Positions 28,046-43,933 of a stretch of 64,000 bases of DNA are shown here, piece by piece. Every line of letters starts with the position of its first letter. The stretch's first letter is position 1. Source of the DNA: Bacteroidota bacterium (GTDB lineage Bacteria > Bacteroidota > Bacteroidia > Bacteroidales > WCHB1-69). The translations under genes were made by a program, and so were the position numbers. The notes beneath the pieces were generated by a model. It had not been told where the DNA came from and did no database searches. It was given only the letters and a program-made list of their open reading frames with translations. Location of the stretch: assembly GCA_017860455.1 (NCBI GenBank), contig JAGDMF010000005.1:1-64000 (forward strand), written 5' to 3'.

Positions 28046-29266
28046 TCAAATTTTTAATAAGAAATTTTGAATCACTTTACTGATCTCCGATAATCTTTCA
28101 AAATTCACAATACCCGGATGATCTTTTGGGGTATGGGTGATCTCCTGGCACTCCATGTTTTCAATAAACCAGGAGGACGTGACAGCAATTGCAGGGCGTC
28201 CAAATTGAACAAAAATGGAATGATCTCCCTGAACCCAGGGTGCTCCTAATTCAATATGATCTTGATTTTTAATCACCTCATCCAAAGTAGTTTGCATAGG
28301 CTCGGGAAGATCAAAAGGGGAGAAGGCTGATCCTCCGGTATGGTAACCGGCCCCATCAATATTGATATTCAGCAACACCTGTTCAAAATCACCTTGATGT
28401 TGTTCAATATACTTCATTTGTCCCGGAACACTATAATAATCCTCCCCGTTAAAAGCAACCAGTTCGATAAGATATTTTCCGGAGTAATCCTTTAGTAATT
28501 CGGAAAGTAGTAATAAAACACTCACACCTGTAGCATTATCAATCGCACCGGGTGTTCCGATTTTAGCATCAATGTGAGCAGAAATCACCATTTTTGGAGC
28601 AGTAGTATCTCCTTTTCTAGCAACAATGTTAAAAGCTTTTGAAGGAATTCGCTTTGCTTTGGAGATCAATGTGACGATTTTACCATCACAATGGAGCAAT
28701 TTTTCCCCTTCAGTATCTTTCATAAACACGGAAGGGATATCAAAATCACCATCTTCAAAAAGGGGAAACGGGTAAACACCACCAGCCACGGCACTATTAT
28801 GTTCCGTAGCACAAACCAATGCCAATGGATTTCCATTTTCTAATGTAGCAACCAACTCCTGATGGTGTTCCGGGTTATAAAAAACAAAATTCTTGGGACT
28901 AATCTGTTCAGCAGCAATTTCACCATAAAGAAACACAATTTTCCCATCGATAGATCTCTCTTTCATCTGTTCTAAAGTGTTTATTGCAATAAGCTCCCCT
29001 TTCACATCACATCCCAAAGAATAGGGAGAAGATTCCACATCAAAAGACTCCTGATCACAAATCAACTGAGCTCCAGCTGTTCGCCAATCGATCACATCTA
29101 GTTCAGTTTCCTCTACGAGCCAACCTTGTTGTTCCACAAAATGTTTAAAATAGGTGGTTGCTTTTCGATTTCCATCACCACCCACTCGTCGTTCCTGAAG
29201 TATATTACAAAGGTAGTTCACATGTTCTTGCGCCTGATTGCATAAATAATTTTGATCCATAAACAT
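28046..29266 (-). CDS. M28-family metallopeptidase
   Basis: A 406-aa zinc aminopeptidase-like protein. The M28 metal and catalytic segments are present in order: VISAHIDAKIG (His, Asp), PGAIDNATG (bridging Asp), VAFNGEDYY (catalytic Glu plus metal ligand), NINIDGAGY and THTPKDHPG (late His). A PA-like insertion occupies ~residues 75-200. No signal peptide is visible, so it may act in the cytoplasm. It is expected to remove N-terminal residues from peptides; specificity is unknown. It has its own -7 promoter element. Confidence 0.82.
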   Translation of the reverse strand: MFMDQNYLCNQAQEHVNYLCNILQERRVGGDGNRKATTYFKHFVEQQGWLVEETELDVIDWRTAGAQLICDQESFDVESSPYSLGCDVKGELIAINTLEQMKERSIDGKIVFLYGEIAAEQISPKNFVFYNPEHHQELVATLENGNPLALVCATEHNSAVAGGVYPFPLFEDGDFDIPSVFMKDTEGEKLLHCDGKIVTLISKAKRIPSKAFNIVARKGDTTAPKMVISAHIDAKIGTPGAIDNATGVSVLLLLSELLKDYSGKYLIELVAFNGEDYYSVPGQMKYIEQHQGDFEQVLLNINIDGAGYHTGGSAFSPFDLPEPMQTTLDEVIKNQDHIELGAPWVQGDHSIFVQFGRPAIAVTSSWFIENMECQEITHTPKDHPGIVNFERLSEISKVIQNFLLKI

Positions 29267-29285
29267 ATTTTCTAATTTTAAAGTG

Positions 29286-29293
29286 CAAAAATA
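29286..29293 (-). promoter_or_regulatory. -7 promoter element for M28 peptidase
   Basis: TATTTTTG on the minus strand, 20 bases before the start codon. Confidence 0.6.
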
Positions 29294-29337
29294 GGGGAGA
29301 AGGAACTGGAATAATTGTAAAAAAGAGACAAAAGTTC

Positions 29338-29490
29338 GGAATGCTCAAATGCTCGAATGCTCGGAATGCTCGATAATAAAGGACTGGTGACGGGAGAAGT
29401 TCGACGTTAAACGTTCGAGGTTCGACGTTAAACGTTAAACGTTCGAAGTTCGACGTTAAACGTTCGATGTTCGAAGTTAAAAGTTCGACG
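29338..29490. repeat. intergenic word repeats: AATGCTCG and ACGTTAAACGTTCGA
   Basis: 29338-29373 holds four imperfect copies of AATGCTCG. 29399-29490 is made of the units TTCGACGTTAAACG, ACGTTCGA and AGTTCGA in irregular order. Part of a larger non-coding mosaic up to 29592; no ORF of note. The same words recur at 45.62 and 58.77 kb. Confidence 0.85.
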
Positions 29491-29508
29491 AAATCCGCTA
29501 AATTATTC

Positions 29509-29540
29509 GTCCGTAGTCTGTGGTCCGTAGTCTGTGGTCC
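29509..29540 (+). repeat. 32-bp dispersed element, 14-bp period (copy 1)
   Basis: Two exact copies of GTCCGTAGTCTGTG followed by GTCC. The same 32-bp layout with consensus GTCSGYAGTCTGYG occurs at 32010-32041 (inverted) and 45580-45611. Confidence 0.85.
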
Positions 29541-29565
29541 TTTGTCCTGGCATCATTTTTAGCCT

Positions 29566-29590
29566 CGCTGAGGGCGCAGGGAGCGCTGAG
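29566..29590 (+). repeat. 25-bp GC-rich dispersed element (copy 1)
   Basis: Starts CGCTGAGGGCGCAGG and ends GAGCGCTGAG. Identical at 31964-31988 and with one mismatch at 30309-30333; much more GC-rich than its surroundings. Confidence 0.85.
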
Positions 29591-29601
29591 GGATTTCTTT
29601 T

Positions 29602-30183
29602 TTAATTTCCATACCGGTAATGCCCGATAATCTTGAAATCAAATAAGCAATCTTCTAAAACCTGCCCAAATCCAATATTATGGATGATGAGGTAATTCCC
29701 AATGTTAGATTTAACATTAGAAACAATCCCTATATGGGTTGTACTGGTTCCTAAATTCCAGCATACAATATCGCCTGGCAAATAATCTGCTCCATTGGTT
29801 GAGATCACCTTTACAGTTCCATGTCGTTTAAAGAAAGTCATTAAGTTAGGAACTCGCCGATGATCAATGTTCTTATCCGGTTTTGTAAGTCCCCAAATTT
29901 GTGGGTATTGATTAAAATTTGCGATCATATCTTCATGGATCTTTTTTTGAAGATCAATTCCCAATTTTCGGTAAGCTCTTATTATTACATCTGTGCAGAC
30001 TCCTTTATCTGAAGGAACATCTCCATTTGGATAAGAAATGGTAAAGTAAGAAGGATCATACTGAACCATTTGTTTTGTTAATGTTAGTGCTGAATCTGCA
30101 AGTCTATTGTAAAAATCGGACTGAGCATACCCCGAAAAGAAGATTATTTGGAGAGATACTAAAAAAAACCATTTCAGTTTCAT
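29602..30183 (-). CDS. DUF1287-family secreted protein
   Basis: A 193-aa exported protein with a signal peptide (cut after FFSGYAQ). The DUF1287 pattern is clear: YPNGDVPSDKGVCTDVIIRAYRKLGIDLQ with a candidate catalytic Cys, then DIVCWNLGTSTTHIGIVS with a candidate His, as in papain-like NlpC/P60-related hydrolases. Such proteins (E. coli YijF is one) may cut peptidoglycan peptides or other amides; none is well characterised. It stands between two repeat-rich gaps and looks monocistronic. Confidence 0.82.
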   Translation of the reverse strand: MKLKWFFLVSLQIIFFSGYAQSDFYNRLADSALTLTKQMVQYDPSYFTISYPNGDVPSDKGVCTDVIIRAYRKLGIDLQKKIHEDMIANFNQYPQIWGLTKPDKNIDHRRVPNLMTFFKRHGTVKVISTNGADYLPGDIVCWNLGTSTTHIGIVSNVKSNIGNYLIIHNIGFGQVLEDCLFDFKIIGHYRYGN

Positions 30184-30237
30184 GATCTGTTTTTATATTC
30201 AGATATAATAACGCATAATCTTGTTGTTTTGTTATTG

Positions 30238-30334
30238 AATTTCAGTTCTATTTTTTTTATAGCACACTGATGAAACTGATTAAACAGATTTTCACAGATT
30301 ATTTTCCACGCTGAGGACGCAGGGAGCGCTGAGA
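30238..30334 (+). repeat. ~97-bp direct repeat, left copy
   Basis: Begins AATTTCAGTTCTATTTT, contains GCACACTGATGAAACTGATT and ends with the 25-bp GC-rich element. About 90% identical, in the same orientation, to 31894-31989. Together they bracket the two AT-rich lipoprotein genes. Confidence 0.9.
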
Positions 30335-30462
30335 TTCGTTACATCTTTTCTTGGTCAACAGTTTACCTACTACAGTCTTTTATTCGGACAATAGTGGAAT
30401 AAAATATACAATCCTATAGGAATTGAAAAATTATTGGATGAAGATAAATAAAGATATTTTAC

Positions 30463-30470
30463 TATCTTTG
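30463..30470 (+). promoter_or_regulatory. -7 promoter element for the AT-rich lipoprotein genes
   Basis: TATCTTTG on the plus strand, 22 bases before the ATG at 30493. No -33 box at normal spacing. Confidence 0.6.
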
Positions 30471-30492
30471 CCATATCAATCTTCTTAAGAAA

Positions 30493-31035
30493 ATGAAAAT
30501 ATTGAGAAATAATCACCAATACACAACTTTAATAATAAAAGCAGTGATTTTAATAATTTCAGCTACACTTTTTATGTGTTGTAGTCCAAGATTATTACTG
30601 CAAAAAAGAACAAAAAGACTCGTTGAAAAATCTTATCAATATACTGATACAATCTATTTGTATACTGTTGCTTTTAGTAATTCAAATTTAATATGGTATC
30701 ACAAAAATGAATATATTTATAGTTGTTTTATTGGGCCTTACAAAATAAAAAAGTATAAACCTATAGAGGCTAAAAATATCACTGTAAATGATAGTATAGA
30801 CAAGTACTTTGATAACACATTTTATAAAGATATCCCATGTTTTCGTACAACATTAGATGGTGAAGGATTTGAAATGTATGTTAAAGATAAAGATGTTAAA
30901 TGGAGTAGTATAAACGTAAAATGCTTATTTCAACAAAAATATGGACAAAATAGTTTTCCATACAAATTACAATATGATTTTTCAAAATTATTAAAGTATA
31001 AGGATTTTGAAATTGATACAATGTATTTAAAATGA
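30493..31035 (+). CDS. AT-rich hypothetical lipoprotein
   Basis: A 180-aa protein. The N-terminus has a hydrophobic segment (LIIKAVILIISATLFMCC) whose end may be a lipobox, with Cys ~29-30. The mature part is rich in Lys, Tyr and Asn and has no recognised family motif. Codon third positions are more A/T-rich than in housekeeping neighbours. It lies with the next gene between long direct repeats, which suggests an acquired or mobile cassette. Function unknown. Confidence 0.6.
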   Translation: MKILRNNHQYTTLIIKAVILIISATLFMCCSPRLLLQKRTKRLVEKSYQYTDTIYLYTVAFSNSNLIWYHKNEYIYSCFIGPYKIKKYKPIEAKNITVNDSIDKYFDNTFYKDIPCFRTTLDGEGFEMYVKDKDVKWSSINVKCLFQQKYGQNSFPYKLQYDFSKLLKYKDFEIDTMYLK

Positions 31036-31130
31036 AAACAATAAAAAAATGAAGAACAGAAAAAATGAATAAAGAGATTATGGGATAAAGGAAAAAAGAT
31101 TTTAAAATTAGTAATTCAATTTATTAACAA

Positions 31131-31691
31131 ATGAAAAATAAAATATTTTCCAAGAATTTAATATTATTTATTGTTGTTGTTTTAATTTTATCAAGTTGTT
31201 CAAATGATATTGATAATATTATAGAGCATAAAGATGAAATAATTTCAATTACGAAAAATCAAGAAATCAGTGTTGATAAATATTATAAAACTTATTATTT
31301 AGTCACTAATATCAACAATAAAACATCAGAAAATTTTTATTATTTTAAAAAAAATTGTATCAAAAATTCCTTATTTTCCAAAAAATGTAAATTTATCATT
31401 TCTCATACTGAAATTCAGTCTAATCCTGATACAGTTGTTAAACTCGATGTTGTTGATAGTGTCGAAAATATTTGTTTATATTACCAAAAATTATCAGAAA
31501 TATTACTTGAATATAATATAATATATATCTCTCATTCAAGAAATAATAAAAATTATTGCACAATGTTTTTAAAAAATGGAAATATTCTAACCTATTATCC
31601 TAATATGCCTAAAGAAGATGAAAAGTTCTTTTTGGATTTTAAAAAGAAGTCTAAAGATTGGTATTTATATGATGGAAATGTTTCACGTTAA
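31131..31691 (+). CDS. AT-rich hypothetical lipoprotein
   Basis: A 186-aa predicted lipoprotein with signal sequence ending LILSSCSND (lipobox LSSC). The mature part is very rich in Lys, Asn and Ile with no recognised domain. It follows the previous lipoprotein gene after 95 bases in the same direction, probably on the same transcript. Very AT-rich, even for this genome. Function unknown; the flanking direct repeats suggest a cassette. Confidence 0.6.
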   Translation: MKNKIFSKNLILFIVVVLILSSCSNDIDNIIEHKDEIISITKNQEISVDKYYKTYYLVTNINNKTSENFYYFKKNCIKNSLFSKKCKFIISHTEIQSNPDTVVKLDVVDSVENICLYYQKLSEILLEYNIIYISHSRNNKNYCTMFLKNGNILTYYPNMPKEDEKFFLDFKKKSKDWYLYDGNVSR

Positions 31692-31797
31692 AATTAGGTA
31701 TAAAAAAAATGTTTAGTTTCAAAAAATCATCAACCTAATATCTAGATTTAAAACAAGTTATGTTTACTCAACATGAAATGAACCCAAGTTTAAATTT

Positions 31798-31850
31798 AAA
31801 AACACTGTGGAACACTTTTTAACACTGAGGAACACTGTGAACCAAAAAAA
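31798..31850. repeat. AACACTG word repeat
   Basis: Four close copies of AACACTGNGG/AACACTTTTT type words in the 350-bp gap after the lipoprotein pair. The gap (31692-32041) holds no gene; it consists of this word, the direct repeat and a 32-bp element. Confidence 0.7.
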
Positions 31851-31893
31851 TTGTTTTTTTTATAATAAAATAACAATGTTAATTATTAATTTT

Positions 31894-31989
31894 AATTTCA
31901 GTTCTATTTTTTTATAGCACACTGATGACACTGATTTAACAGATTTTCAGAGATTATTTTTCTCGCTGAGGGCGCAGGGAGCGCTGAGA
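31894..31989 (+). repeat. ~97-bp direct repeat, right copy
   Basis: Second copy of the element at 30238-30334, same orientation, about 90% identical, again ending with the 25-bp GC-rich element (31964-31988). Confidence 0.9.
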
Positions 31990-32009
31990 GATGTGTTATC
32001 ACTTTCCAA

Positions 32010-32041
32010 AGACCGCAGTCCGCCGACCGCAGACTGCCGAC
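32010..32041 (-). repeat. 32-bp dispersed element, 14-bp period (copy 2, inverted)
   Basis: Minus strand: GTCGGCAGTCTGCG, GTCGGCGGACTGCG, GTCT. It abuts the stop codon of the nitroreductase gene. Confidence 0.85.
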
Positions 32042-33103
32042 TTAATTTAAATTGATATTATTTGTTGTTATTCTGATTGAACTTCTTTTGGATATTTGAT
32101 CTGTTTGACCAATTCTTAAGAGTAATGCCGGAAATTTGGTGGAAGATTCTGTAAATACGGCATTGAACTTTTCTTTGTGTTTGAAAAGCTTATTTTTATA
32201 CTTTTCGGTAAAAAACCGGGGCTCAATATCCAGTTTGGTAAGATATTGGGGTAATACGCCATAAGGTTGTACCGATAAACCCATTTTTGTGCAGGTCAAC
32301 CACAGTTGTTCCAATCCCCTTCCGGCTTCAATGTATGATTTACAATCTCTTTCTGTCACCGAAATCAAACATAAACAGCTTGATTTGGTGAGTTTTCGGG
32401 AAAGTGAATAGGCTACTAATTTGCCGAATCCCAGCTTACTTACAAGATCATTAAATAAACGAAATTTCAAAAATTTGGCAAAAAATACAGCAAAATCCGG
32501 TACTTCTAAACTTTCAAAGGTGAGGCCATACCGGTATTTTTCGTTTTCAGATCTTGAAAACCGTAAAATATCAAATAGTTCATCATGAAAAGGTTGATAT
32601 TCGAGTCTAATGTAAGATGATTGTGCATCTAACAGGGCGATCTCTTCAAATTGTGGTTTGTCAAAAATATACTGACAAGATACCGGAAAAGAAGCTGTCG
32701 ATTTTTGAAGTAAAAAAATCTGAGTGTTGCTTAATTTTGTTCGGATATCATAAGGCGCTCTATTCGTTGATCTTATTGGGATGCAATCTGCTAATTCATT
32801 GTTACTTTCACAAGAAGAAAAGCATAACAGTGCAACAAGTTTATCGAATGTGGCATGATTAGGGTAAGTTATTTTACACGAAAATCCTCTGTTTTCAGCG
32901 GTAATAATGATGTTTTGGATTGCTGCACCCACACTGATTAATCCAAACATATCTAAGGTGTCAGTGGGTAATGATCTCTCTTTGATGTAATAAACCTCAA
33001 TTTCATCGTCTCTTTTCTTGAAAGCCCAGGGTTGCATGTTATCTGCCGAAGGGGCTAAAGAAGCCGCTTCTAACCAACAGTAAAATTCGCTGTCTGATAT
33101 CAT
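32042..33103 (-). CDS. Acg-like nitroreductase-family flavoprotein
   Basis: A 353-aa protein of the nitroreductase superfamily. ASLAPSADNMQPWAFK at residues ~14-29 is the typical FMN-contacting N-terminal signature, and GLEQLWLTCTKMGLSVQPYGVLPQY is the conserved C-terminal part. The length, about 1.6 times a simple nitroreductase, suggests an Acg-like two-half subunit. It should bind FMN and reduce an unknown substrate with NAD(P)H. Its start overlaps the stop of the GNAT/oxoamine synthase fusion by 4 bases, so it probably acts on that enzyme's product or pathway. The product itself is inference. Confidence 0.75.
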   Translation of the reverse strand: MISDSEFYCWLEAASLAPSADNMQPWAFKKRDDEIEVYYIKERSLPTDTLDMFGLISVGAAIQNIIITAENRGFSCKITYPNHATFDKLVALLCFSSCESNNELADCIPIRSTNRAPYDIRTKLSNTQIFLLQKSTASFPVSCQYIFDKPQFEEIALLDAQSSYIRLEYQPFHDELFDILRFSRSENEKYRYGLTFESLEVPDFAVFFAKFLKFRLFNDLVSKLGFGKLVAYSLSRKLTKSSCLCLISVTERDCKSYIEAGRGLEQLWLTCTKMGLSVQPYGVLPQYLTKLDIEPRFFTEKYKNKLFKHKEKFNAVFTESSTKFPALLLRIGQTDQISKRSSIRITTNNINLN

Positions 33104-35475
33104 ATTTTATTTTGTATAGGCCAAAATGGCGTTTTTAATGTTTCAAATATTTGTAAGGCATGATCTAACATCTCTTTTGTGTGCGTAGCCATAAGACTGA
33201 TCCTCAATAGTTCGTGATTTTTGGGAACTGCCGGACTGGTAACCGGGTTTACAAAAACACCCTGTTCAAATAGAAATTGGTAGGCAGCAACTGTCATATG
33301 TTCATTTCTGCAATATAAAGCAATAATGGGACCACCCTGATAATAGATTTCAAAACCTAATTTAGTTAATCCTTGTGCCAGGTAGGCTGCATTTTCCAGT
33401 AAGTTTTTTCTTCTTTCCGGTTCTTCACAGCTAATTTTTAATGCTGCTAAAACAGCAGCCACAGATGAGGGTGGTAAGCTGGCAGAAAATACATGTCCCC
33501 TGGAAGTGTGGCGCAAAGTGTCAATAATTTTTTCTTCACCGGCTATAAAACCACCGACTGATGCAAAAGCTTTGCTGAATGTTCCCATAATGAGATCAAC
33601 GTCGTCCGTTAATTGATAATAGGAAGCAATTCCTTGTCCTGCATCTCCAAAAACCCCCAAGGCATGGGATTCATCTAGCATCAATCTAAATCCATACTTC
33701 TTTTTTAAGGTTACTATTCCCGGTAAATCAATGATGGTACCCTCCATGCTGAACAGAGAATCGGTAACCACTAATATTTTTTGTCCCGAATATTTATTCA
33801 ATAATTGTTCTAAAGAATCTAAACAATTGTGTCGGTATCTTACTAATTGGGATCTGGATAACAAAGCACCATCAATTAAACTGGCATGGTTCCTTTCATC
33901 CATGATTACAACATCGTTTCTATTGGTTAAGGCAGAAAGTGTTCCCACATTGGTTTGATATCCTGTTGAAAACAATAAAGCACTCTCTTTGCCCACAAAA
34001 GAAGCCATTTTTTCAGATAGTTCAACATGCAAATCCAATGTACCGTTTAATATAGGGGAACCTGAACAGCCGGTACCATATTTCTCAATGGCACTTATGG
34101 CAGCTTTACATATTTCGGGATGAACAGAAAGTCCCAAATAAGCATTGGCTCCGAGCATAATCACCTGTTTACCATTTGATTGAACAATAGGAGTCTGCGC
34201 CGTTTCAAATGGGGGACAAAGCTGGTATAATCCTGCTGCCCGTGCTTTGTCGGTTCTGATATACCTTTTATGTTTATAAAATACATCTTCTTTATTTTGA
34301 TTCTGAATCAGATTTCGATACGTTTTAAGTTGTATCCGCTGATGAGAATTTTCATATCTGAAAGCCCTGTGGTTGTTATCCGGTTGTTGAATGCTATTGC
34401 AGATGTAATCGGCATAAACGGGACTATATCGATCATTTTGGAACGACTTAATATAGTAAAATGTAGGTTCTAATTCACAGCCAATAAAACATTTAAAATC
34501 ATAAGTTGTAATACCAAAATTAAAGAACTTTTTACCCAATCTACAAGCGACTTTAAACGATTCAAAAATATTATTGAAATAAAGATCATACTGATCCCGG
34601 TACTTATAATCCAAACCTTCTGCCATTCCAAAATATTCTGTATCACCGATCAGATTTAATCCAAATGCGATCAGTTCATTGTCCCTTTTTATTGCGACTA
34701 AATGGGATCTTCCTTTGAGTTCTTCCGCCATTTTAATGAAAAATGCAGGCGTTAGTTTCTCATGTTCATATCCATTATTGTTTTGGGCAACCTGAGTCCA
34801 AAGTTCGGTTAATCGGTCTGCGTAAATTCCATAATCTTCCATAATTTCAACCTGAATTTCCGGTTGATCTATTTTGGAACTTCTATGTAAAAGCTGATTT
34901 CTTTTTTTAGATTTTAAGGCTTCCAAATAACCTGAAATATGATTCCATTTTAGTCCCATTCTGGCTATTGGATATCCTAAAGTACAACAATAACCCTCAT
35001 CGGTAAGGGGTTGAAAAAATGGAACCTGTTCTTTTAAAATATCTCTGATCAGACAAACATCAATCTGCTCTTGTAAGGCTATTTTTTCAATTTCCAAATG
35101 GAGTAATTTTAAAAAATCATGAGCGTAATTTGTATCAAAATGAATTGTATTTCCTAATGATGCAATATGGCCCATTTCCAAAATTTTGAGTTTCATAAAC
35201 TGATGTTTCCAACACCTGATTGTTTCCAGAATTTCAGAAGGATAACTATTGGATAATTTAGCAAAATCAACATTCAAAATCATCCCATAAGCAATTCCTA
35301 TCACATTCTGTTCCTCGTAAGCAATAAAATAGTAAGGTTTTAAATCATTAATTCGGGATAATTCAATGCCTTTTAAATGAGCTATTTCTAAACTGACACT
35401 AGCGGTATCAACAAAAAGATTCCAATCATGAACCGGAACGGAATCAATGGAAGAAAATTGTTGTATCGAAATCAT
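33100..35475 (-). CDS. GNAT acyltransferase / alpha-oxoamine synthase fusion
   Basis: A 791-aa two-domain enzyme. Residues ~1-390: GNAT/FemAB-like acyltransferase (Acetyltransf_6 type, e.g. LKSKKRNQLLHRSSK, SHLVAIKRDNELIAFGL). Residues ~400-791: complete PLP-dependent alpha-oxoamine synthase with NHASLIDGA, DESHALGVFG (D601 pairs with PLP) and GTFSKAFASVGGF (K635 forms the Schiff base). Enzymes of the second family (BioF, Kbl, HemA, serine palmitoyltransferase, cysteate acyltransferase) condense an amino acid with an acyl thioester. GNAT-type proteins N-acylate sphingoid bases in bacterial ceramide synthesis. The fusion could therefore make an N-acylated ketoamine lipid on one chain; that is inference. 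It lies between a TetR gene and a flavoprotein gene with 4-base overlaps on both sides. Confidence 0.85.
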   Translation of the reverse strand: MISIQQFSSIDSVPVHDWNLFVDTASVSLEIAHLKGIELSRINDLKPYYFIAYEEQNVIGIAYGMILNVDFAKLSNSYPSEILETIRCWKHQFMKLKILEMGHIASLGNTIHFDTNYAHDFLKLLHLEIEKIALQEQIDVCLIRDILKEQVPFFQPLTDEGYCCTLGYPIARMGLKWNHISGYLEALKSKKRNQLLHRSSKIDQPEIQVEIMEDYGIYADRLTELWTQVAQNNNGYEHEKLTPAFFIKMAEELKGRSHLVAIKRDNELIAFGLNLIGDTEYFGMAEGLDYKYRDQYDLYFNNIFESFKVACRLGKKFFNFGITTYDFKCFIGCELEPTFYYIKSFQNDRYSPVYADYICNSIQQPDNNHRAFRYENSHQRIQLKTYRNLIQNQNKEDVFYKHKRYIRTDKARAAGLYQLCPPFETAQTPIVQSNGKQVIMLGANAYLGLSVHPEICKAAISAIEKYGTGCSGSPILNGTLDLHVELSEKMASFVGKESALLFSTGYQTNVGTLSALTNRNDVVIMDERNHASLIDGALLSRSQLVRYRHNCLDSLEQLLNKYSGQKILVVTDSLFSMEGTIIDLPGIVTLKKKYGFRLMLDESHALGVFGDAGQGIASYYQLTDDVDLIMGTFSKAFASVGGFIAGEEKIIDTLRHTSRGHVFSASLPPSSVAAVLAALKISCEEPERRKNLLENAAYLAQGLTKLGFEIYYQGGPIIALYCRNEHMTVAAYQFLFEQGVFVNPVTSPAVPKNHELLRISLMATHTKEMLDHALQIFETLKTPFWPIQNKI

Positions 35476-36128
35476 GATTTAATAGTATTCCAAAAGTTAG
35501 TCTCAAAAAATTGGATCATCATCTCAAGTTCTGCTTTTATCTTAGAAAGATCAGCATTAGAATTTTGTTTAACAATAAAAGTATTGTATGCCCAAGAAAA
35601 TCTGAAACTATTAAACAAAAGAGTTAAAGCTTTTAAGTCAGTAGTTTTAAGAGTTCCCATTTTTTGACATTTTTCAAATAATACATAAATCAATTCAAAT
35701 CCTAACTCATTATATTGCTTAACATAGATTTCACCAATCTGTTCATTTCTATTCATTTCATGAAACATGATTCTCATAATTTTTATCATATAGGGTTCAG
35801 AATTAATAATATCCGGCAACGGTTCAAGTAATCCGCGAAAAATAGAGATTCCGTCAAGGGAATTCAATGTAGCTTCGATAGGAAGAGGTGAAAAAATCAG
35901 GTTTTCAGCATATTTAAAAATTGCATTTAATAGCTCTTCTTTATTGGAATAATGCCTGTAAATAGCACCTTCTGTCAATCCAAGAGCATTGCTAATATCA
36001 CGTATTGGCGTGCTGTTGTACCCTTTTTCAGCAAAAAGATCAATTGCCGTGTTGAAAATTTTGTCTTTGGTGCTTTGTTCTCCGTTTTTTACTGGTGGAC
36101 GCCCCATTTTCTTTTGAGTATTTTTCAT
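35472..36128 (-). CDS. TetR/AcrR-family transcriptional regulator
   Basis: A 218-aa regulator. The N-terminal helix-turn-helix is clear: IFNTAIDLFAEKGYNSTPIRDISNALGLTEGAIYRHYSNKEELL. The C-terminal all-helical ligand domain is unassigned. I chose MKNTQKKMGRPPVKNGE as start because the longer frame begins inside the -7 promoter element and encodes a hydrophobic, non-TetR tail. It is the first gene of the operon with the oxoamine synthase fusion and nitroreductase, so it probably autoregulates and controls them, perhaps in response to an acyl or lipid ligand (inference). Confidence 0.88.
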   Translation of the reverse strand: MKNTQKKMGRPPVKNGEQSTKDKIFNTAIDLFAEKGYNSTPIRDISNALGLTEGAIYRHYSNKEELLNAIFKYAENLIFSPLPIEATLNSLDGISIFRGLLEPLPDIINSEPYMIKIMRIMFHEMNRNEQIGEIYVKQYNELGFELIYVLFEKCQKMGTLKTTDLKALTLLFNSFRFSWAYNTFIVKQNSNADLSKIKAELEMMIQFFETNFWNTIKS

Positions 36129-36185
36129 TAAAAATATTGAATAACAATAAAATAGAATAAATAAGTAAACAGTTACATACAAATG

Positions 36186-36193
36186 CAAAAATA
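36186..36193 (-). promoter_or_regulatory. -7 promoter element for TetR-fusion-nitroreductase operon
   Basis: TATTTTTG on the minus strand, 58 bases before the chosen TetR start. A TetR operator would be expected nearby; no convincing palindrome was seen. Confidence 0.55.
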
Positions 36194-36348: not shown

Positions 36349-38109
36349 ATGAAAAAAATGATTTTGACTGTTATGCTGGCGGTGCTGACGACATTTGGAT
36401 CTCAGCTTTCAGCTTGTACTAACTTTATCGTAACGAAAGGTGCCAGCAAGGATGGCTCCACTTTTTTAACTTATTCCGCTGATTCTCACACTCTTTACGG
36501 CGAGTTGTACTACTGGCCTGCACGGGATTATCCTACAGGTACTGTAATGGATGTGATTGAATGGGATTCGGGTAAATTTTTGGGTCAAATTCCTCAGGTA
36601 AACCACACCTATCAAGTGGTTGGAAACATGAATGAACACCAATTGGCAATTGGCGAAACTACTTATGGTGGTTTGGATCAATTGGGTGACCCTAACGGAA
36701 TCATGGATTATGGTTCCCTCATTTATATCACATTACAAAGAGCAAAAAATGCCAGAGAAGCGATCAAAATTTTGAGCGAATTGATGGATGCTTACGGATA
36801 TGCCAGCAGTGGAGAATCATTTTCTATCGTTGACCCTAACGAAGCCTGGATTTTTGAATTGATTGGAAAAGGTAAAGAACTTAAAGATGCTAAAGGGAAA
36901 ACTTTAAAAGGTTGGACCAAAGGTGCTGTTTGGGTTGCTCGTCGTATTCCTGATGGATTTGTTTCCGGACATGCTAACCATGCCAGAATAATGACTTTCC
37001 CTTTAACAAACGGAAAAACGTCTATCACCAATAGAGAATTAAGCAAAATTTTTAATCCTGAAGTGGAAACCGTATATGCTCATGATGTAATCTCATTTGC
37101 TAAAATAGCAGGTTTATACCCAGCAACTGCTCCCGATGCAGAATTTGACTTTGCAGGAACTTACGCACCACTTGATTTTGGAGGTGCACGTGGTTGTGAA
37201 GCACGCGTTTGGGCTTTCTTTAATCATTGCGATACCAAATTGATGGCTCCTTATGAAAAATATGCTCGTGGCGAAGATCTAAAAAGTAAAGAAAGAATGC
37301 CATTGTGGATTAAACCGGTTCAAAAAATTGGAGTTAGAGATATGATGCTTTTTATGCGTGATCATTACGAAGGAACATCAATGGATATGACTCAGGATTT
37401 GGGAGCAGGTCCATTCGCTTGTCCATACAGATGGAGACCTATGACCTGGAGTGTTGATGGTCAAAACTATGTTCATGAAAGAGCAACGGCAACTCAACAA
37501 ACCGGATTCTCATTTGTAGCACAATGCCGCAGCTGGATGCCTGATAAAATTGGGGGAATCTATTGGTTTAGTGTGGATGACGCAGCCAGCACCTGCTATG
37601 TTCCGATGTTTGTCGGAATCACTTCTGTTCCATTAGCATTTAGAGAAGGAAACGGTTCCATGGTAGAATATTCTGCCACTTCTGCTTTCTGGACATTTAC
37701 CAAAGTGAGCAATTTTGCCTATTCCCGCTATAAAGATATGATTAAACACATCAATGCAAAACAAGATTATTGGGAGATTGGTGCTATTAATGAGATCGCT
37801 CAGAAAGAGAAAGAGTGGGTTGCATTATACCAAAAAGATACAGTTGCTGCCATTAATCAAATTAACGATTATTCAAACCACAAAGCAGAACAAGTTGTTG
37901 CAGACTGGAATAAACTGTTCGAATATCTTCTTGTAAAATATAACGATGGTAACGTTAAAAAAGAGGAAAACGGAAAATTTAAAACCAATGGGGAGAGAAA
38001 ACCTCAGGCTGTTTTCCCTGATCAACCAAAATATCCAGATTATTGGTATCGTATGATCGTAAAAGATTGCGGTACAAAAATTCAGGCACCTCAAGAACAA
38101 AGTCACTAA
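36349..38109 (+). CDS. pepD: C69-family dipeptidase
   Basis: Secreted Ntn-hydrolase fold dipeptidase, 586 aa. The signal peptide ends in QLSAC, and the catalytic nucleophile is expected to be the Cys of ACTNFIVTKGASKDGS, exposed by processing. Conserved C69 segments follow (GNMNEHQLAIGETTYGG, DYGSLIYITLQRAKNAREAI, GHANHARI, GGARGCEARVW). I chose the ATG at MKKMILTVML since an earlier in-frame TTG overlaps the -7 element. It splits dipeptides, probably in the periplasm as part of peptide use. folP follows 4 bases later. Confidence 0.9.
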   Translation: MKKMILTVMLAVLTTFGSQLSACTNFIVTKGASKDGSTFLTYSADSHTLYGELYYWPARDYPTGTVMDVIEWDSGKFLGQIPQVNHTYQVVGNMNEHQLAIGETTYGGLDQLGDPNGIMDYGSLIYITLQRAKNAREAIKILSELMDAYGYASSGESFSIVDPNEAWIFELIGKGKELKDAKGKTLKGWTKGAVWVARRIPDGFVSGHANHARIMTFPLTNGKTSITNRELSKIFNPEVETVYAHDVISFAKIAGLYPATAPDAEFDFAGTYAPLDFGGARGCEARVWAFFNHCDTKLMAPYEKYARGEDLKSKERMPLWIKPVQKIGVRDMMLFMRDHYEGTSMDMTQDLGAGPFACPYRWRPMTWSVDGQNYVHERATATQQTGFSFVAQCRSWMPDKIGGIYWFSVDDAASTCYVPMFVGITSVPLAFREGNGSMVEYSATSAFWTFTKVSNFAYSRYKDMIKHINAKQDYWEIGAINEIAQKEKEWVALYQKDTVAAINQINDYSNHKAEQVVADWNKLFEYLLVKYNDGNVKKEENGKFKTNGERKPQAVFPDQPKYPDYWYRMIVKDCGTKIQAPQEQSH

Positions 38110-38113
38110 AAAT

Positions 38114-38914
38114 ATGTTTCTAAATTTAAAAGGAGATTTACAGTCACTCAAAACACCCATCGTTATGGGTGTTTTGAATTGTACTGATGATTCTTTTTAT
38201 GCAGGTAGCCGATTTAAAGAGGACTCCGATGTAATTATCAGAGCAACAGAAATTTTAACTCAAGGTGGCGTTTTAATCGACTTAGGCGCTGTATCAACAC
38301 GTCCGGATTCACATCCGATTGATGCCGGAACCGAATATATGAGAATCAAGAAATATCTGAACCTCATTTTAAAATATATCCCACATGCTAAGGTATCCGT
38401 GGATACTTTTCGTTCTAATGTGGCTGAAATGGCTATCGGAGAAGGAGCTGCCATGATCAATGATGTCTCCGGCGAAGATGAAAAAATGTTTAAGGTAGTG
38501 GCTTCTCATAGAATTCCGTATTGCCTTACCCACAACTCGAGAGGCAGGGAGTTGACTAACGAAGAATTGATTCCGGACATGCTCACATTTTTCGGAAATA
38601 AAGTGGAACAACTAAAACAAATGGGTGCTAATGATATTATTTTGGATCCCGGTTTTGGTTTCGGAAAATCGATTGATCAAAATTTTTATCTCATGAAAAA
38701 TTTAGCTGTTCTTCATGAACTTGAATTGCCATTATTAGTCGGAATTTCAAGAAAATCAATGATATATAAAAGTTTGGATTCAACTCCTGAACACGCATTA
38801 GCCGGAACGATTGCACTCAATACAATCGCTGTGCTGAATCATGCGCATATTTTAAGGGTTCATGACGTTAAAGAAGCATTAGATACTATTGTTATCACTG
38901 AAAAATGTATGTAA
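38114..38914 (+). CDS. folP: dihydropteroate synthase
   Basis: Condenses 6-hydroxymethyl-7,8-dihydropterin pyrophosphate with p-aminobenzoate in folate synthesis; the target of sulfonamides. 266 aa TIM barrel with the conserved segments PIVMGVLNCTDDSFYAGSR, IDLGAVSTRP, SVDTFRSNVA, MINDVSG, LDPGFGFGKS and GISRKSMI. It follows the dipeptidase gene after 4 bases and leads the compact folP-lipoprotein-nadC-yihY-lpxB series. Confidence 0.95.
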   Translation: MFLNLKGDLQSLKTPIVMGVLNCTDDSFYAGSRFKEDSDVIIRATEILTQGGVLIDLGAVSTRPDSHPIDAGTEYMRIKKYLNLILKYIPHAKVSVDTFRSNVAEMAIGEGAAMINDVSGEDEKMFKVVASHRIPYCLTHNSRGRELTNEELIPDMLTFFGNKVEQLKQMGANDIILDPGFGFGKSIDQNFYLMKNLAVLHELELPLLVGISRKSMIYKSLDSTPEHALAGTIALNTIAVLNHAHILRVHDVKEALDTIVITEKCM

Positions 38915-38926
38915 AATAGTCCGGTT

Positions 38927-39430
38927 ATGAAAAAAATTGTGTTTTTCTTGTTTTTAGGAGTTTTGTTTACCTGTTGTGAACCGGAAGATAAATATCCGAT
39001 TATTCCTAAAATTGTGTTTCTAAGTCTTGACAAAATTCCCAACGAAATGGGTGTCGATAATAAAGCTTCACTCACTTTCTATTTTGAAGATGGAGATGGC
39101 GATATTGGACTAAACGATACTGCTGAAGATTTAAAACCTCCATTTGATACAACTTCCATTTATCATTATAATTTTTTTATTGATTATTATGAAAAACAAA
39201 ACGGGGAGTTTGTCAAAATTGATCTACCTGCCGAACAGAATGCCAGAATACCCAGATTAAGCAATAATACACCGGAATCGATTGACGGAACAGTGTCTGT
39301 TGAGATCTTTATCAACAATATCACTTCCGTTTATGATACCGTAAAATTTGAATTTTATATTGTGGACAGAGCCTTACATCACAGTAATGTTGTGTCAACA
39401 CCCGAAATTATAATAGATAAAGCAAAATGA
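38927..39430 (+). CDS. hypothetical lipoprotein in folP-nadC operon
   Basis: A 167-aa predicted lipoprotein (lipobox LFTCC, Cys ~16). The mature part starts EPEDKYPIIPKI and contains FYFEDGDGDIGLND, an acidic motif that could bind Ca2+, in a predicted beta-sandwich-like domain. This FxDGDGDIGL pattern is known to me from many Bacteroidota lipoproteins of unknown function. Its stop overlaps the nadC start by 4 bases. Confidence 0.72.
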   Translation: MKKIVFFLFLGVLFTCCEPEDKYPIIPKIVFLSLDKIPNEMGVDNKASLTFYFEDGDGDIGLNDTAEDLKPPFDTTSIYHYNFFIDYYEKQNGEFVKIDLPAEQNARIPRLSNNTPESIDGTVSVEIFINNITSVYDTVKFEFYIVDRALHHSNVVSTPEIIIDKAK

Positions 39431-40263
39431 GCATCGAAGAGATTGTAAAGCAAACTTTACTGGAGGATATAGGATCTGGTGATCACTCCTCTTTAGCCTG
39501 TATTGATCCTTCCATTATAGGAAAAATGAAATTACTGGTAAAAGAGGATGGCATTTTAGCCGGCGTTGAAGTGGCCAATGAGGTGATTCGACAAGTGAAT
39601 CCTGCTATTAAAATGACCCAAATAATGAACGATGGAGATTCCATAAAAGTGGGAGACATTGTTTTTGAACTGGAAGGTCCCGCACAAAGTATGCTTACCG
39701 CAGAAAGAAGTTTACTCAATTTTATGCAAAGAATGAGTGGAATTGCTACCTGCTCTAAGAAATATGCTGATGCTGTTGCTGGTACTAAAACCAAAATTTT
39801 AGATACCCGAAAAACAACGCCCGGATTGAGAATTTTTGAAAAATATGCGGTTCACTTAGGAGGATCAGAAAATCACCGCTTTGGACTTTACGATATGATT
39901 ATGTTGAAAGATAATCATATCGATTTTGCCGGGGGTATTGAAAAAGCGATTGATACTACCCGAAGTTATTTGAAAAACAATCAGTTAGATCTTAAAATTG
40001 AGATAGAAACCCGCAATCTTGATGAGGTGAAAAGGGTGATCGCCCACGGAGGAGTGGACAGAATCATGTTAGATAACTTTTCTCCTGACAAAATTAAAGA
40101 AGCTTTGACTCTCATCAATGGTCAATTCGAAACAGAAGCTTCAGGAGGAATCACTTTGGAAAACATTAGAGGGTATGCTGAATCAGGCGTAGATTTTATT
40201 TCAATTGGTGCATTAACCCACCATATAAAAAGTTTAGATTTGAGTCTTAAATTTGTCCAATAA
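39427..40263 (+). CDS. nadC: nicotinate-nucleotide pyrophosphorylase (carboxylating)
   Basis: Quinolinate phosphoribosyltransferase, forming nicotinate mononucleotide from quinolinate and PRPP in de novo NAD synthesis. 278 aa, full length. Conserved segments: ILDTRKTTPGLR, HRFGLYDMIMLKDNHI, and the C-terminal EASGGITLENIRGYAESGVDFISIGALTH. nadA and nadB are not in the window. Both gene ends overlap neighbours. Confidence 0.97.
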   Translation: MSIEEIVKQTLLEDIGSGDHSSLACIDPSIIGKMKLLVKEDGILAGVEVANEVIRQVNPAIKMTQIMNDGDSIKVGDIVFELEGPAQSMLTAERSLLNFMQRMSGIATCSKKYADAVAGTKTKILDTRKTTPGLRIFEKYAVHLGGSENHRFGLYDMIMLKDNHIDFAGGIEKAIDTTRSYLKNNQLDLKIEIETRNLDEVKRVIAHGGVDRIMLDNFSPDKIKEALTLINGQFETEASGGITLENIRGYAESGVDFISIGALTHHIKSLDLSLKFVQ

Positions 40264-41255
40264 TGACCAATACCCCTTTTTATTCATTTAAAACCAGAAG
40301 AAAGATCATCCGTTTGATGCACTTGCCGATGATTCACAAAACGACCGCTTTTTTAAAAAAGCTGGTGGTTCCCGGTTTTCAAAACGTACCCTTTTGGGAT
40401 GTGATGAAGTTCTTTCTGGAATCTTTGTTTAAAGGGATATTATTTCAAAGGGCTGCGGCCATGACCTACTACATTTTTGCTACTGCAATCCCAATGCTGA
40501 TGGCGTTAGTAGCCACAATCTCGTTTTTAGGAGTCTCCTTTCATACCACCATGCTCGAGATGTTACAATCCGTAATTCCACCCTATTTGTGGCCCACCAT
40601 TTCTCAGATTGTCAACTCCTTAATATTACAACAAAATAGTGCTATTTTATATGTTTCTATCGGATTAGGAATTTATCTCTCCTTTTTGAGTGTCAATTCA
40701 ATTGTAACAACTTTGAATATCAGTTATTTTCATGTTGAACAACGGTCGTTTCTAAAACAATTACCGATCAGTTTTATTATGGTGATTGTATTTTTAATCA
40801 TCATCATTGCATCATCGGGTATATTTGTTGGAGCTTCCTTGTTAATCAGTAATTTAACCAAACATTTTGTTGCCTCTGCAACATTTTATACAACGTCCAT
40901 TACAATTTTCAAATGGGTTTCCTTGTTCTCATTAATGTATTTGTTGCTTTCAGCACTATTCTATTTTGCTCCTTATAAAAAAGAATTTTTCAAGTTCTTT
41001 TCTGCAGGGTCCACATTTTCCTCCATAATGCTCGTGATTTTGCTAAAAGGGATCAACTACTATTTTGCCAATTTTTCATCCTATAATGCTGTTTATGGGT
41101 CAATTGGAGCGATATTACTAATATTGATCTGGATCAACTGGAGTTGTGTGGTGGTGTTGATCGGGTTTGATCTGAATGTAAGCATCTCATTAGCCCAACA
41201 AAAAAGAAAAAACCAAAACGATGGACTTAAGATCATAAGTTCTTTAGAGAATTAA
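40263..41255 (+). CDS. YihY/BrkB-family inner-membrane protein
   Basis: A 330-aa integral membrane protein with about six transmembrane helices in the YihY/BrkB pattern: FQRAAAMTYYIFATAIPMLMALVATI near the N-terminus and ANFSSYNAVYGSIGAILLILIWINWSCVVVLIGFDLN near the C-terminus. Members were once labelled ribonuclease BN, which is incorrect; proposed roles concern envelope integrity or transport. It sits between nadC (one-base overlap) and lpxB. Confidence 0.9.
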   Translation: MTNTPFYSFKTRRKIIRLMHLPMIHKTTAFLKKLVVPGFQNVPFWDVMKFFLESLFKGILFQRAAAMTYYIFATAIPMLMALVATISFLGVSFHTTMLEMLQSVIPPYLWPTISQIVNSLILQQNSAILYVSIGLGIYLSFLSVNSIVTTLNISYFHVEQRSFLKQLPISFIMVIVFLIIIIASSGIFVGASLLISNLTKHFVASATFYTTSITIFKWVSLFSLMYLLLSALFYFAPYKKEFFKFFSAGSTFSSIMLVILLKGINYYFANFSSYNAVYGSIGAILLILIWINWSCVVVLIGFDLNVSISLAQQKRKNQNDGLKIISSLEN

Positions 41256-41262
41256 CAAAACT

Positions 41263-42399
41263 ATGAAATATTACATCATTGCCGGAGAGGCATCAGGTGA
41301 CTTATTAGGTTCCTATTTAATGAAAGAGATCAAAAAAAATGATCCTGAAGCTGATTTTTTGATTTGGGGCGGTGATCTGATGGAAGCACAGGGAGGAACA
41401 TTAATCAAACACTACAAAGAACTGGCATTTATGGGTTTCTGGGAAGTAGCCACCCATTTGAAAACGATAATGAAAAACCTTTCTGTGTGCAAAATTGATC
41501 TTTTATTATATGAACCGGATGTAGTTATTTTAATCGATTATCCCGGATTTAATATGAAAATTGCCCAGTTTGCCAGGGAAAACGGTTTTAAAGTGGTCTA
41601 TTATGTTTCCCCATCCGTTTGGGCATGGAAAAAAAACAGAGTATATAAAATCAAAAGAGATGTTGATATACTGCTTTCGATACTTCCATTCGAAAAAGAG
41701 TTTTATGCCAAATATAACTACGATGTTGCGTACATCGGACATCCTTTGCTCGATGTGATTCAGGATCAAAAAGATAGCTATGGAACGATTGAAGATTTCA
41801 AGAACCAGTTTTCTTTAGATGATCGTCCCATAATCGCCATTTTACCGGGAAGCAGAAAGCAGGAGTTAGTTCGCATTCTTCCCGAAATGTTAAAAGTGAT
41901 CGATCTATATCCGGAGTACCAGTTTGTGATCTCCAAAGTGAAATGGCAACCCGAAGAATTGTATCATAAATTACTCAAAAACAGAAAAATAACCCTCATT
42001 GAAGGAAATACATATCCATTATTGCATCATGCAACAGCTGCATTAGTAACTTCCGGAACGGCCACATTAGAAACCGCATTAATAGATACCCCACAGGTAG
42101 TGTGTTATAAAACAAGTGGTTTATCTTACCGTATTGCCAAGATGGTAGTTGGTAAAGATCTGAAATATATCTCATTGGTCAATCTTATTATGGATGAACC
42201 GATTGTAACCGAGCTGATCCAGGGTGACATGAACACCAAAAGAGTTTGTAAAGAGCTTGATTTGATCTTAAAAGATCAGGAAAACATCCAAAGAATGAAA
42301 AGTCGGTACGCTGCTTTACGGGAAAAATTAGGCAACAGCGGCGCTTCAGCCAAAGGGGCAAAGTTGATTGATGAGTTGGGGAGGAGTGGATCAAATTAG
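41263..42399 (+). CDS. lpxB: lipid-A-disaccharide synthase
   Basis: Family GT19 glycosyltransferase joining UDP-2,3-diacylglucosamine and lipid X to give the lipid A disaccharide. 378 aa. It opens KYYIIAGEASGDLLGSYLM and contains VVYYVSPSVWAWKKNRVYKIK, IGHPLLDVI, ILPGSRKQEL and TSGTATLETALIDTPQVVCYK. It acts on the inner face of the inner membrane. Last gene of the folP operon; shows that the organism makes LPS. Confidence 0.97.
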   Translation: MKYYIIAGEASGDLLGSYLMKEIKKNDPEADFLIWGGDLMEAQGGTLIKHYKELAFMGFWEVATHLKTIMKNLSVCKIDLLLYEPDVVILIDYPGFNMKIAQFARENGFKVVYYVSPSVWAWKKNRVYKIKRDVDILLSILPFEKEFYAKYNYDVAYIGHPLLDVIQDQKDSYGTIEDFKNQFSLDDRPIIAILPGSRKQELVRILPEMLKVIDLYPEYQFVISKVKWQPEELYHKLLKNRKITLIEGNTYPLLHHATAALVTSGTATLETALIDTPQVVCYKTSGLSYRIAKMVVGKDLKYISLVNLIMDEPIVTELIQGDMNTKRVCKELDLILKDQENIQRMKSRYAALREKLGNSGASAKGAKLIDELGRSGSN

Positions 42400-43183: not shown

Positions 43184-43414
43184 ATGAAAACAATATCTTT
43201 AAAAATTGATACGCTTATTTTTGGAGAAACAGAAATGATTCTTTCGCATTTAAAAATTCCTAGAAATCGCTACATAAATGAGGCATTAGCTTATTATAAT
43301 GCAATTAAAAACAGACAGTTACTAGAAAAACAACTACAGAAAGAGTCTGCCTTAGTTCAAAAAGAATCAATCAATATATTAAATGAATTTGAAGGTTTGG
43401 ATTATGTTGATTAA
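43184..43414 (+). CDS. antitoxin of MazF/PemK-type pair
   Basis: A 76-aa protein directly upstream of, and overlapping, the MazF-like toxin gene. The N-terminal half (SLKIDTLIFGETEMILSHLKIPRNRYINEALAYYN) fits a ribbon-helix-helix DNA-binding fold: a short strand followed by two helices. The charged C-terminal half (QLLEKQLQKESALVQKES) probably wraps the toxin. It is predicted to neutralise the toxin and repress the operon through the inverted repeat at the promoter. The class is inferred from size, position and pattern. Confidence 0.8.
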   Translation: MKTISLKIDTLIFGETEMILSHLKIPRNRYINEALAYYNAIKNRQLLEKQLQKESALVQKESINILNEFEGLDYVD

Positions 43415-43754
43415 ACAATTTGAAATTTGGGTTGCAGATTTGAATCCTCAAATAGGAACAGAAACCGGGAAAACACGCCCGGTATTGATTATTCAAACAA
43501 ATTTATTGAATAGTATTCCACATCCATCCACACTAATTTGTCCTATTACGACAAACGTCGAAAAGCGATCAGATATACTGCGTGTTCACCTAAAAAAGGG
43601 AATGGCAAATCTGAATGAAAATTGTGATATTATGATAGATCAAATGAGAGCAATTGACAATCAGAGATTTGTCAGAAAAATTGGTAATTTACCTTCCATT
43701 TTGGAGGAAAAAGTAATACAAAATATCAAGATTGTTCTCGATTTTAATCCATAG
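43404..43754 (+). CDS. MazF/PemK-family endoribonuclease toxin
   Basis: Type II toxin of 116 aa. It begins MLIKQFEIWVADLNPQIGTETGKTRPVLIIQ, the MazF/PemK hallmark (ADLNP...G.E.GKTRPVLIIQ), followed by ICPITTNVEKRSD and NCDIMIDQMRAIDNQRF, which carries the conserved Asp-Gln region. The family cuts mRNA at short sequence motifs. I chose the internal ATG at 43404, which overlaps the antitoxin stop, over an upstream in-frame start that adds seven residues. It is intact and probably active. Confidence 0.9.
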   Translation: MLIKQFEIWVADLNPQIGTETGKTRPVLIIQTNLLNSIPHPSTLICPITTNVEKRSDILRVHLKKGMANLNENCDIMIDQMRAIDNQRFVRKIGNLPSILEEKVIQNIKIVLDFNP

Positions 43755-43791
43755 TATTTGGGCGTTTCGACACCATCTTATTCATTTTTTT

Positions 43792-43901
43792 TCACGCAGA
43801 GATCACAAAGTGATTTTCCACTGAGTCCACTGAGGTAAATATCATTGTGTCCTTAGTGGTAAAAAAAATTGCTAATTCACCAATTTGCTAATTTGCTAAT
43901 T
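43792..43901. repeat. word-repeat block before the RHS tip gene
   Basis: Contains CACGCAGAGATCACAAAGTG, CCACTGAGTCCACTGAGG and then TTGCTAATT words (TTTGCTAATTTGCTAATT). This 170-bp gap between the toxin gene and the RHS tip holds no gene. The last word supplies the -33 box of the next promoter. Confidence 0.75.
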
Positions 43902-43914
43902 TTTTTTATCTTTG
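43884..43914 (+). promoter_or_regulatory. canonical Bacteroidota promoter for orphan RHS tip
   Basis: TTTG (43884-43887), 19 bases, TATCTTTG (43907-43914); exact consensus. The -33 box is part of the TTTGCTAA tandem word. The ATG at 43934 leaves a leader of only about 15 bases. Confidence 0.8.
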
Positions 43915-43933
43915 CTCTTTCAATTTGCACACA

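Follow-up and report, generated by a model that had tools for sequence, protein, structure and literature searches.

The locus described here raises the question of whether a single polypeptide can both condense an amino acid with a fatty acyl group and N-acylate the resulting amine; in bacterial ceramide synthesis, which has recently been worked out, three separate enzymes are used. The locus is an operon of three minus-strand genes in a 64,000-nucleotide stretch of DNA (hereafter the window; positions 1 to 64,000 of contig JAGDMF010000005.1, assembly GCA_017860455.1), whose contig measures 92.9 kb and comes from a Bacteroidales draft genome that is 65% complete. In the order of transcription, the genes encode a TetR-family regulator, a 791-amino-acid (aa) fusion protein and a 353-aa flavoprotein (Table 1). 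In Pfam searches, the first half of the fusion matched FemAB_like/Acetyltransf_6, the second half Aminotran_1_2 and the third gene Nitroreductase. The original prediction for this DNA described three genes with a 4-base overlap at each junction, and both the open reading frames (ORFs) and a reading of the sequence confirmed this, the two junctions being 4-nucleotide (nt) ATGA overlaps. Its range, 33100-36128, omits nearly all of the flavoprotein gene, and the true extent of the operon is therefore 32042-36128. Its reading of the synthase also stood, while the class that it gave to the GNAT domain, the role of the flavoprotein as a reductase and that of TetR as a lipid sensor either found no support or had to be changed.

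We consider it about an even chance (probability of roughly 0.5) that the operon encodes a self-contained, horizontally acquired pathway for a ceramide-like N-acylated aminoketone lipid. In this proposal, the C-terminal domain of the fusion, whose active site is intact and of the serine palmitoyltransferase (SPT) type, would condense a fatty acyl thioester and an amino acid (L-serine being the most likely one) in a reaction dependent on pyridoxal phosphate (PLP), releasing CO2 and yielding a 2-amino-3-ketone of the 3-ketosphinganine type. The GNAT domain in the same polypeptide, to judge by its fold, its pairing with the synthase and analogy, would then N-acylate this amine to give a 3-ketoceramide-like amide, thereby substituting for the separate bacterial ceramide synthase (bCerS). 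Judging from its family, the downstream flavin mononucleotide oxidase would desaturate or otherwise oxidise the N-acylated alpha-amino carbonyl compound. The Spt and bCerS of C. crescentus both work in the cytoplasm and precede the reduction step (PMC11087976). What the assemblies show directly is the architecture and the repeated occurrence of the fusion with the flavoprotein; all of the reactions are inferred. The operon combines known kinds of enzymes in a new arrangement and is not a new kind of system.

The C-terminal domain retains all the catalytic residues of an alpha-oxoamine synthase (AOS) and is nearest to SPT. Its scores with curated models were 477 bits for SPT, 369 bits for BioF and 274-346 bits for Kbl-type enzymes, and its best solved relative was the Sphingobacterium SPT (PDB 3a2b, E = 8.5e-113). 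The catalytic residues Lys635 (PLP), His530 (PLP-stacking), Asp601, His604, Asn444 (substrate) and Arg758 are present. Ala665 matches the Ala that the 21 SPT rows of relatives and the three reference SPTs all have, whereas at the equivalent position 6/6 SulA rows have Lys, every Kbl row has Asn and E. coli BioF has Thr. The active-site Lys (SulA Lys281) has been proposed as the mark that separates sulfonolipid from sphingolipid enzymes (PMC9304779). Pro474 occupies a position at which most SPT rows have Arg, and three relatives also have Pro there. The identity of the domain to the SPTs of related Bacteroidales was 44-51%.

To place the domain, we then built a maximum-likelihood tree from 58 AOS rows and applied approximately unbiased (AU) topology tests to a reduced set. 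The AOS domains of the window fusion and of two homologous fusions formed one clade (100/100) on a branch of its own, placed beside SPT. Union of the fusions with Kbl was rejected (AU test, p = 0.0004), and a topology in which SPT forms one clade excluding the fusions was retained (p = 0.19). Firm clustering of the synthase with Kbl or BioF, which had been named as grounds for refutation, was thus checked and not seen: the scores and the residues gave an SPT-like result, and the tree put the domain beside SPT with moderate support. An identity as Kbl or BioF was rejected on the Kbl union and on Ala665, and the same residue speaks against an identity as SulA (cysteate acyltransferase). A second, unassigned AOS (418 aa, 38% identical) is encoded on contig C10 of the window genome (L115:6666-7922); it has Cys at the position of the SPT Ala, SulA Lys and Kbl Asn, and grouped with L121 (100/97).

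The N-terminal domain passed the FemAB-like cut-offs (PF04339, 39.3 bits, cut-off 27; PF13480, 29.3 bits, cut-off 22). An AlphaFold model of this domain, built from three sequences, had a mean predicted local distance difference test score (pLDDT) of 70 and a predicted template-modelling score of 0.58. The best Foldseek match of this model (pLDDT 70) was FemX (E = 7e-10), and VIA-align gave a Z score of 13.5 against FemX but a root-mean-square deviation (rmsd) of ~15 A over 270 residues. The matched fold class also holds acyl-coenzyme A (CoA) enzymes and N-myristoyltransferase (Foldseek rank 45). Because the fold is common to aminoacyl-tRNA-dependent and acyl-CoA enzymes, and given the pLDDT of 70 and the rmsd of ~15 A, the match cannot tell the donor. 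The model is consistent with a FemX-like tandem GNAT domain whose donor could be acyl-CoA, an acylated acyl carrier protein or aminoacyl-tRNA. E. coli BL21 YghO is the counterpart of the bCerS CC_1154 (PMC9386255). BL21 also carries an spt gene. A phmmer search with this YghO found bCerS-like genes in relatives and did not find the ACYLTRANSFERASE domain of the fusion, so that, instead of belonging to the class of GNATs that N-acylate such amines, as had been claimed, the domain appears FemX-like and outside the bacterial ceramide-synthase family. No bCerS structure was present in the VIA-align listing, and whether any has been solved was not checked. Saxitoxin SxtA also combines an AOS with a GNAT, which is of a different, decarboxylating type, and SxtA was dropped as a relative.

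We further analyzed the acyltransferase genes beside the synthases of relatives. A gene of the YghO/ceramide-synthase family was found within ~1.5 kb of 9 out of 21 SPT loci, compared with 0 of the 8 loci whose synthases are of Kbl or other types, and the local pairing of SPT with an N-acyltransferase is therefore common. In the fusion, this partner of SPT has been replaced by another GNAT, which has been fused to the synthase. Fusions with the opposite order (~800-850 aa), which have a PRK07505-type AOS first and a GNAT of the same broad family after it, occur in several Bacteroidota families, and one of the genomes that carry them belongs to the window's own order. Their AOS domains lie in a distant clade (100/100 in the 58-row tree) and their GNAT domains form a separate branch (FastTree). 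From their sequences, we read the AOS-GNAT fusion as having arisen twice independently, in opposite domain orders, and two separate fusions argue that both activities serve one pathway. By analogy with the neighbouring SPT and N-acyltransferase genes and with this second set of fusions, condensation and N-acylation by one chain, as originally suggested, would be a reasonable reading. The opposite-order fusions also suggest that the chemistry is much more common than the three SPT-type fusions, and they possibly represent a widespread N-acyl aminoketone signal system. Among their neighbours, Pfam identified DUF7793 in L066 and L060 and a protein with an AraC-type helix-turn-helix and PAS in L066; the neighbours in L065, L067 and L068 look similar. 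A cluster conserved between two families of the order to which the window belongs (L061:4889-9892 and L064:1610-8328) encodes a bCerS/YghO-family GNAT, a FemAB-like GNAT and two B12-type radical SAM-like proteins.

The flavoprotein matched PF00881 (Nitroreductase; 33.9 bits, cut-off 23.5), and its scores with NF011424 (158 bits), NF005901 (146 bits) and NF047509 (133 bits, cut-off 199) were all below the cut-offs. Its matches fall in the Acg/Rv1355c group, the best solved relative being Acg (PDB 2ymv, E = 1e-7). In an alignment of 11 proteins, which included 9 relatives of the flavin-dependent oxidase (FDO) type, the NxQPW motif, Arg111, Arg115, Arg181, Gly193, Gly261 and Arg344 were conserved (Trp26 in 10/11), and the likeliest counterparts of TrzS R540 and Q651 are Arg181 and Gln279. 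A structure model from two sequences had a pLDDT of 37 and was set aside. TyzC, OxzB and TrzS desaturate N-acyl amino acids that come from a partner N-acyltransferase, with O2 serving as acceptor in the cases tested (PMC10404671, PMC12856293). Since the flavoprotein belongs to this TyzC/TrzS/Acg branch of oxidases, it is more likely an oxidase or desaturase than the tailoring reductase of the original prediction. Its nearest relatives in Bacteroidia are mostly Rv1355c-type ThiF-oxidase fusions (the one that was scanned scored 736 bits, cut-off 476), the operons of which also carry a ~230-aa protein (with a weak GNAT match in one case) and response regulators. Five such operon-like sets (L158 to L162) also encode a large sensor-like protein, which in L159 is a 7TMR-DISM histidine kinase, and have the appearance of acyl-oxazolone pathways linked to signalling.

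Outside the window genome, we found the fusion in only two Bacteroidota assemblies. In GWF2_33_16 (L059/L078), which belongs to another family, it shows 54% identity over 789 aa, and a flavoprotein gene lies 13 nt downstream (46% identity to the window flavoprotein). The third copy, in Ww25 (L077), is 742 aa long and still open where its 3.8-kb contig ends; the flavoprotein neighbour was thus seen in the one assembly that is readable there. When the genome contigs were scanned with the GNAT domain, a single-sequence query found nothing and a two-row alignment found two loci. Searches of genomes sampled from the phylum (~400), the order (400) and the class (300) gave no further fusions, and neither, besides GWF2_33_16, did a second Bacteroidales sample of 393 genomes. 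The fusion was also absent from the plasmids and viral contigs searched and from phages, for which no match covered 80% of the query and the matches shown were in the AOS half; a PHROGs search gave no matches. With few copies in the genome samples, and with TetR near neither homologue, the locus is rare and scattered.

We compared the window with two near-complete congeners (G001 and G002), both of which are without the locus. The window stretch 28046-36188 is missing from both, and in G001 the flanking block (C69 peptidase to an lpxB-like gene, 61-76% identical) is inverted beside gltX, as it is in G002. The missing stretch and the inverted block suggest that the operon lies in a variable island gained by horizontal transfer. 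The congeners have neither SPT nor bCerS-family genes nor the fusion; an imported SPT-like enzyme would therefore need its own acyltransferase, which fits a fusion. The core block (36349-42399) has the reverse orientation with respect to gltX in the congeners, as in a variable island beside a rearrangement.

Several of our observations weigh against a ceramide-like pathway. The top curated match of the synthase (NF047600, Bacteroidota SPT; 476.8 bits) is under the cut-off of 640, the SPT grouping of the fusions had moderate support (92/83) and their sister position to Bacteroidota SPT weak support (82/35), neither of them starred, and union with SulA was retained in the AU test (p = 0.10), though the two are apart in the best tree. 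For the GNAT domain, a bCerS/YghO-family identity was rejected for want of detectable sequence similarity (phmmer), and the nearest folds include FemX, which depends on aminoacyl-tRNA. The GWF2_33_16 genome holds a separate bCerS-family gene elsewhere, and no ketoreductase or head-group gene is linked to the operon. On inspection, the window ORF at 45851-49378 reads as pyruvate:ferredoxin oxidoreductase, an anaerobe's enzyme, and the lineage looks anaerobic; O2 may therefore not be the acceptor of the flavoprotein.

Among the alternatives, a non-sphingoid product is unlikely, although it is the one most to be reckoned with. Here, glycine, alanine or an aromatic amino acid would give an N-acyl aminoketone, a signal or secondary metabolite that the oxidase would desaturate or that would close to an oxazole-type ring, and the operon would be functionally analogous to the acyl-oxazolone pathways of mycobacteria, an AOS replacing ThiF. 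This would agree with an FDO family characterised solely in N-acyl-amino-acid desaturation, with an AOS on a deep separate branch outside the SPT core and below the SPT equivalog cut-off, and with Bacteroidia relatives of the flavoprotein that are Rv1355c-type ThiF-FDO fusions accompanied by an acyltransferase-like protein and sensor genes. However, the AOS active site has SPT-type residues throughout, including Ala665, and the nearest enzymes are all SPTs. It is improbable that the operon serves ordinary membrane sphingolipid synthesis, with the fusion as the lineage's SPT plus an accessory domain and the flavoprotein as an Acg-like redox or flavin-storage protein that takes no part in the pathway. 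The flavoprotein is coupled by ATGA here and adjacent in GWF2_33_16, in two different families, and the window genome's congeners do without an SPT altogether, even though Acg is the best solved relative of the flavoprotein and the fusion of GWF2_33_16 is the only AOS in that genome with >36% identity to the window domain, with a bCerS-family gene elsewhere.

Slightly more improbable still is an aminoacyl-lipid, formed if a FemX-like, aminoacyl-tRNA-dependent N-terminal domain added an amino acid to the aminoketone. The closest folds (FemX, FemA, MprF and the Sba18/Sbb17 peptide synthases) and the Pfam assignment to FemAB_like would suit such a reaction, but the fold class includes acyl-CoA enzymes and N-myristoyltransferase, and the model comes from three sequences with an rmsd of ~15 A. 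A mis-assembly or frameshift joining two unrelated genes might be suspected in a 65%-complete draft whose congeners are without the locus; it is already refuted, and can practically be dismissed, because the two-domain architecture is matched in two unrelated assemblies, with identical domain order and length across three independent assemblies and 54% identity end to end. Returning to the ceramide-like pathway, we propose a more specific version only tentatively: that the operon pairs a one-chain SPT-like enzyme and non-homologous ceramide synthase with a coupled flavin desaturase to make an undescribed unsaturated N-acyl aminoketone lipid or signal, as a module imported into bacteria in which sphingolipid genes are otherwise absent.

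Compared with known systems, the synthase shares with bacterial SPT (Sphingobacterium multivorum, PDB 3a2b/8guh; NF047600) the PLP Lys, the stacking His, the carboxylate Arg, the Asn and the active-site Ala, and differs in being fused to a GNAT, in scoring 477 against 640 bits, in its separate 100/100 branch and in Pro474. bCerS (CC_1154, E. coli BL21 YghO) is also a GNAT-type N-acyltransferase paired with SPT and of about equal size, but it has no detectable similarity to the window domain and is always a separate gene in the cases seen here. The TyzABC, OxzAB and TrzAS pathways likewise combine an N-acyltransferase with a flavin-dependent oxidase of the same nitroreductase branch, whereas the window has an AOS in place of the ThiF cyclase, an acyltransferase of another family, and AOS and acyltransferase in one chain. 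No ThiF-type cyclase was found by Pfam in the three genes, and none was recognised on reading the neighbouring ORFs, not all of which were scanned with Pfam. The AOS-FemAB fusions of Flavobacteriaceae and other Bacteroidota also join an AOS to a GNAT of the same broad family in one chain, but with the reverse domain order, a distant PRK07505-type AOS, and DUF7793 and an AraC/PAS regulator as neighbours. SulA (cysteate acyltransferase; PDB 7u7h, 28eh) is an AOS with a long-chain acyl donor that is common in the same families, and it differs in its Lys at the position of the window Ala and in its separate clade. The open-access literature yielded no report of a fusion of the AOS-GNAT, SPT-ceramide-synthase or FemAB-SPT kind, an absence that is weak evidence.

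If the proposal is true, the joining of both steps in one chain, with a different acyltransferase, would be a second solution to ceramide synthesis. It would also offer a compact means of producing ceramide-like lipids and would point to an unmapped N-acyl aminoketone family in Bacteroidota. The kinship of the flavoprotein to mycobacterial acyl-oxazolone oxidases gives a direct prediction for its activity.

Table 1. Features of the operon (window positions) and related gene sets in other genomes (locus:positions)
Feature	Position	Strand	Details
TetR-family regulator, first gene of the operon	35472..36128	-	218 aa from ATG at 36128
Fusion	33100..35475	-	791 aa, single unbroken frame
Fusion, N-terminal tandem GNAT/FemAB-like acyltransferase domain + linker	34291..35475	-	aa 1-395
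Fusion, C-terminal SPT-like AOS domain	33100..34275	-	aa 401-791
Flavoprotein, nitroreductase superfamily, flavin-dependent oxidase (TyzC/TrzS/Acg) branch	32042..33103	-	353 aa
ATGA overlap, TetR stop/fusion start	35472..35475	-	...AAATCATGATTTCG...
ATGA overlap, fusion stop/flavoprotein start	33100..33103	-	...AAAATATGATATCA...
Opposite-order AOS-FemAB fusions	L065:7738-10149, L066:8988-11411, L067:7251-9743, L068:9480-11906, L060:7510-9936		PRK07505-type AOS
ThiF-flavin oxidase operon-like sets, Bacteroidia	L158:6996-9940, L159:7407-13583, L160:7355-10318, L161:6693-9627, L162:6649-9605

The regulator matched PF00440 (57.2 bits, cut-off 24), and its C-terminal part scored 21 bits with PF14246, just below the cut-off of 22. 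It probably controls the operon. No TetR gene was found near either homologous fusion (GWF2_33_16 and Ww25), and a search for a TetR operator gave nothing beyond weak AT-rich inverted repeats; with the regulator missing at both other loci, the notion that it senses a lipid found no support.

Contamination or a foreign composition was rejected for the operon, because its GC content (31-39%) falls inside the window's range. Two lipoprotein-like ORFs with a GC content of 20-24%, compared with a window mean of 34.5%, adjoin the operon at 30493-31691. On inspection, positions 43383-44695 of the window hold a PemK/MazF-like ORF followed by a fragment that resembles the end of an RHS-repeat core with a LysM motif.

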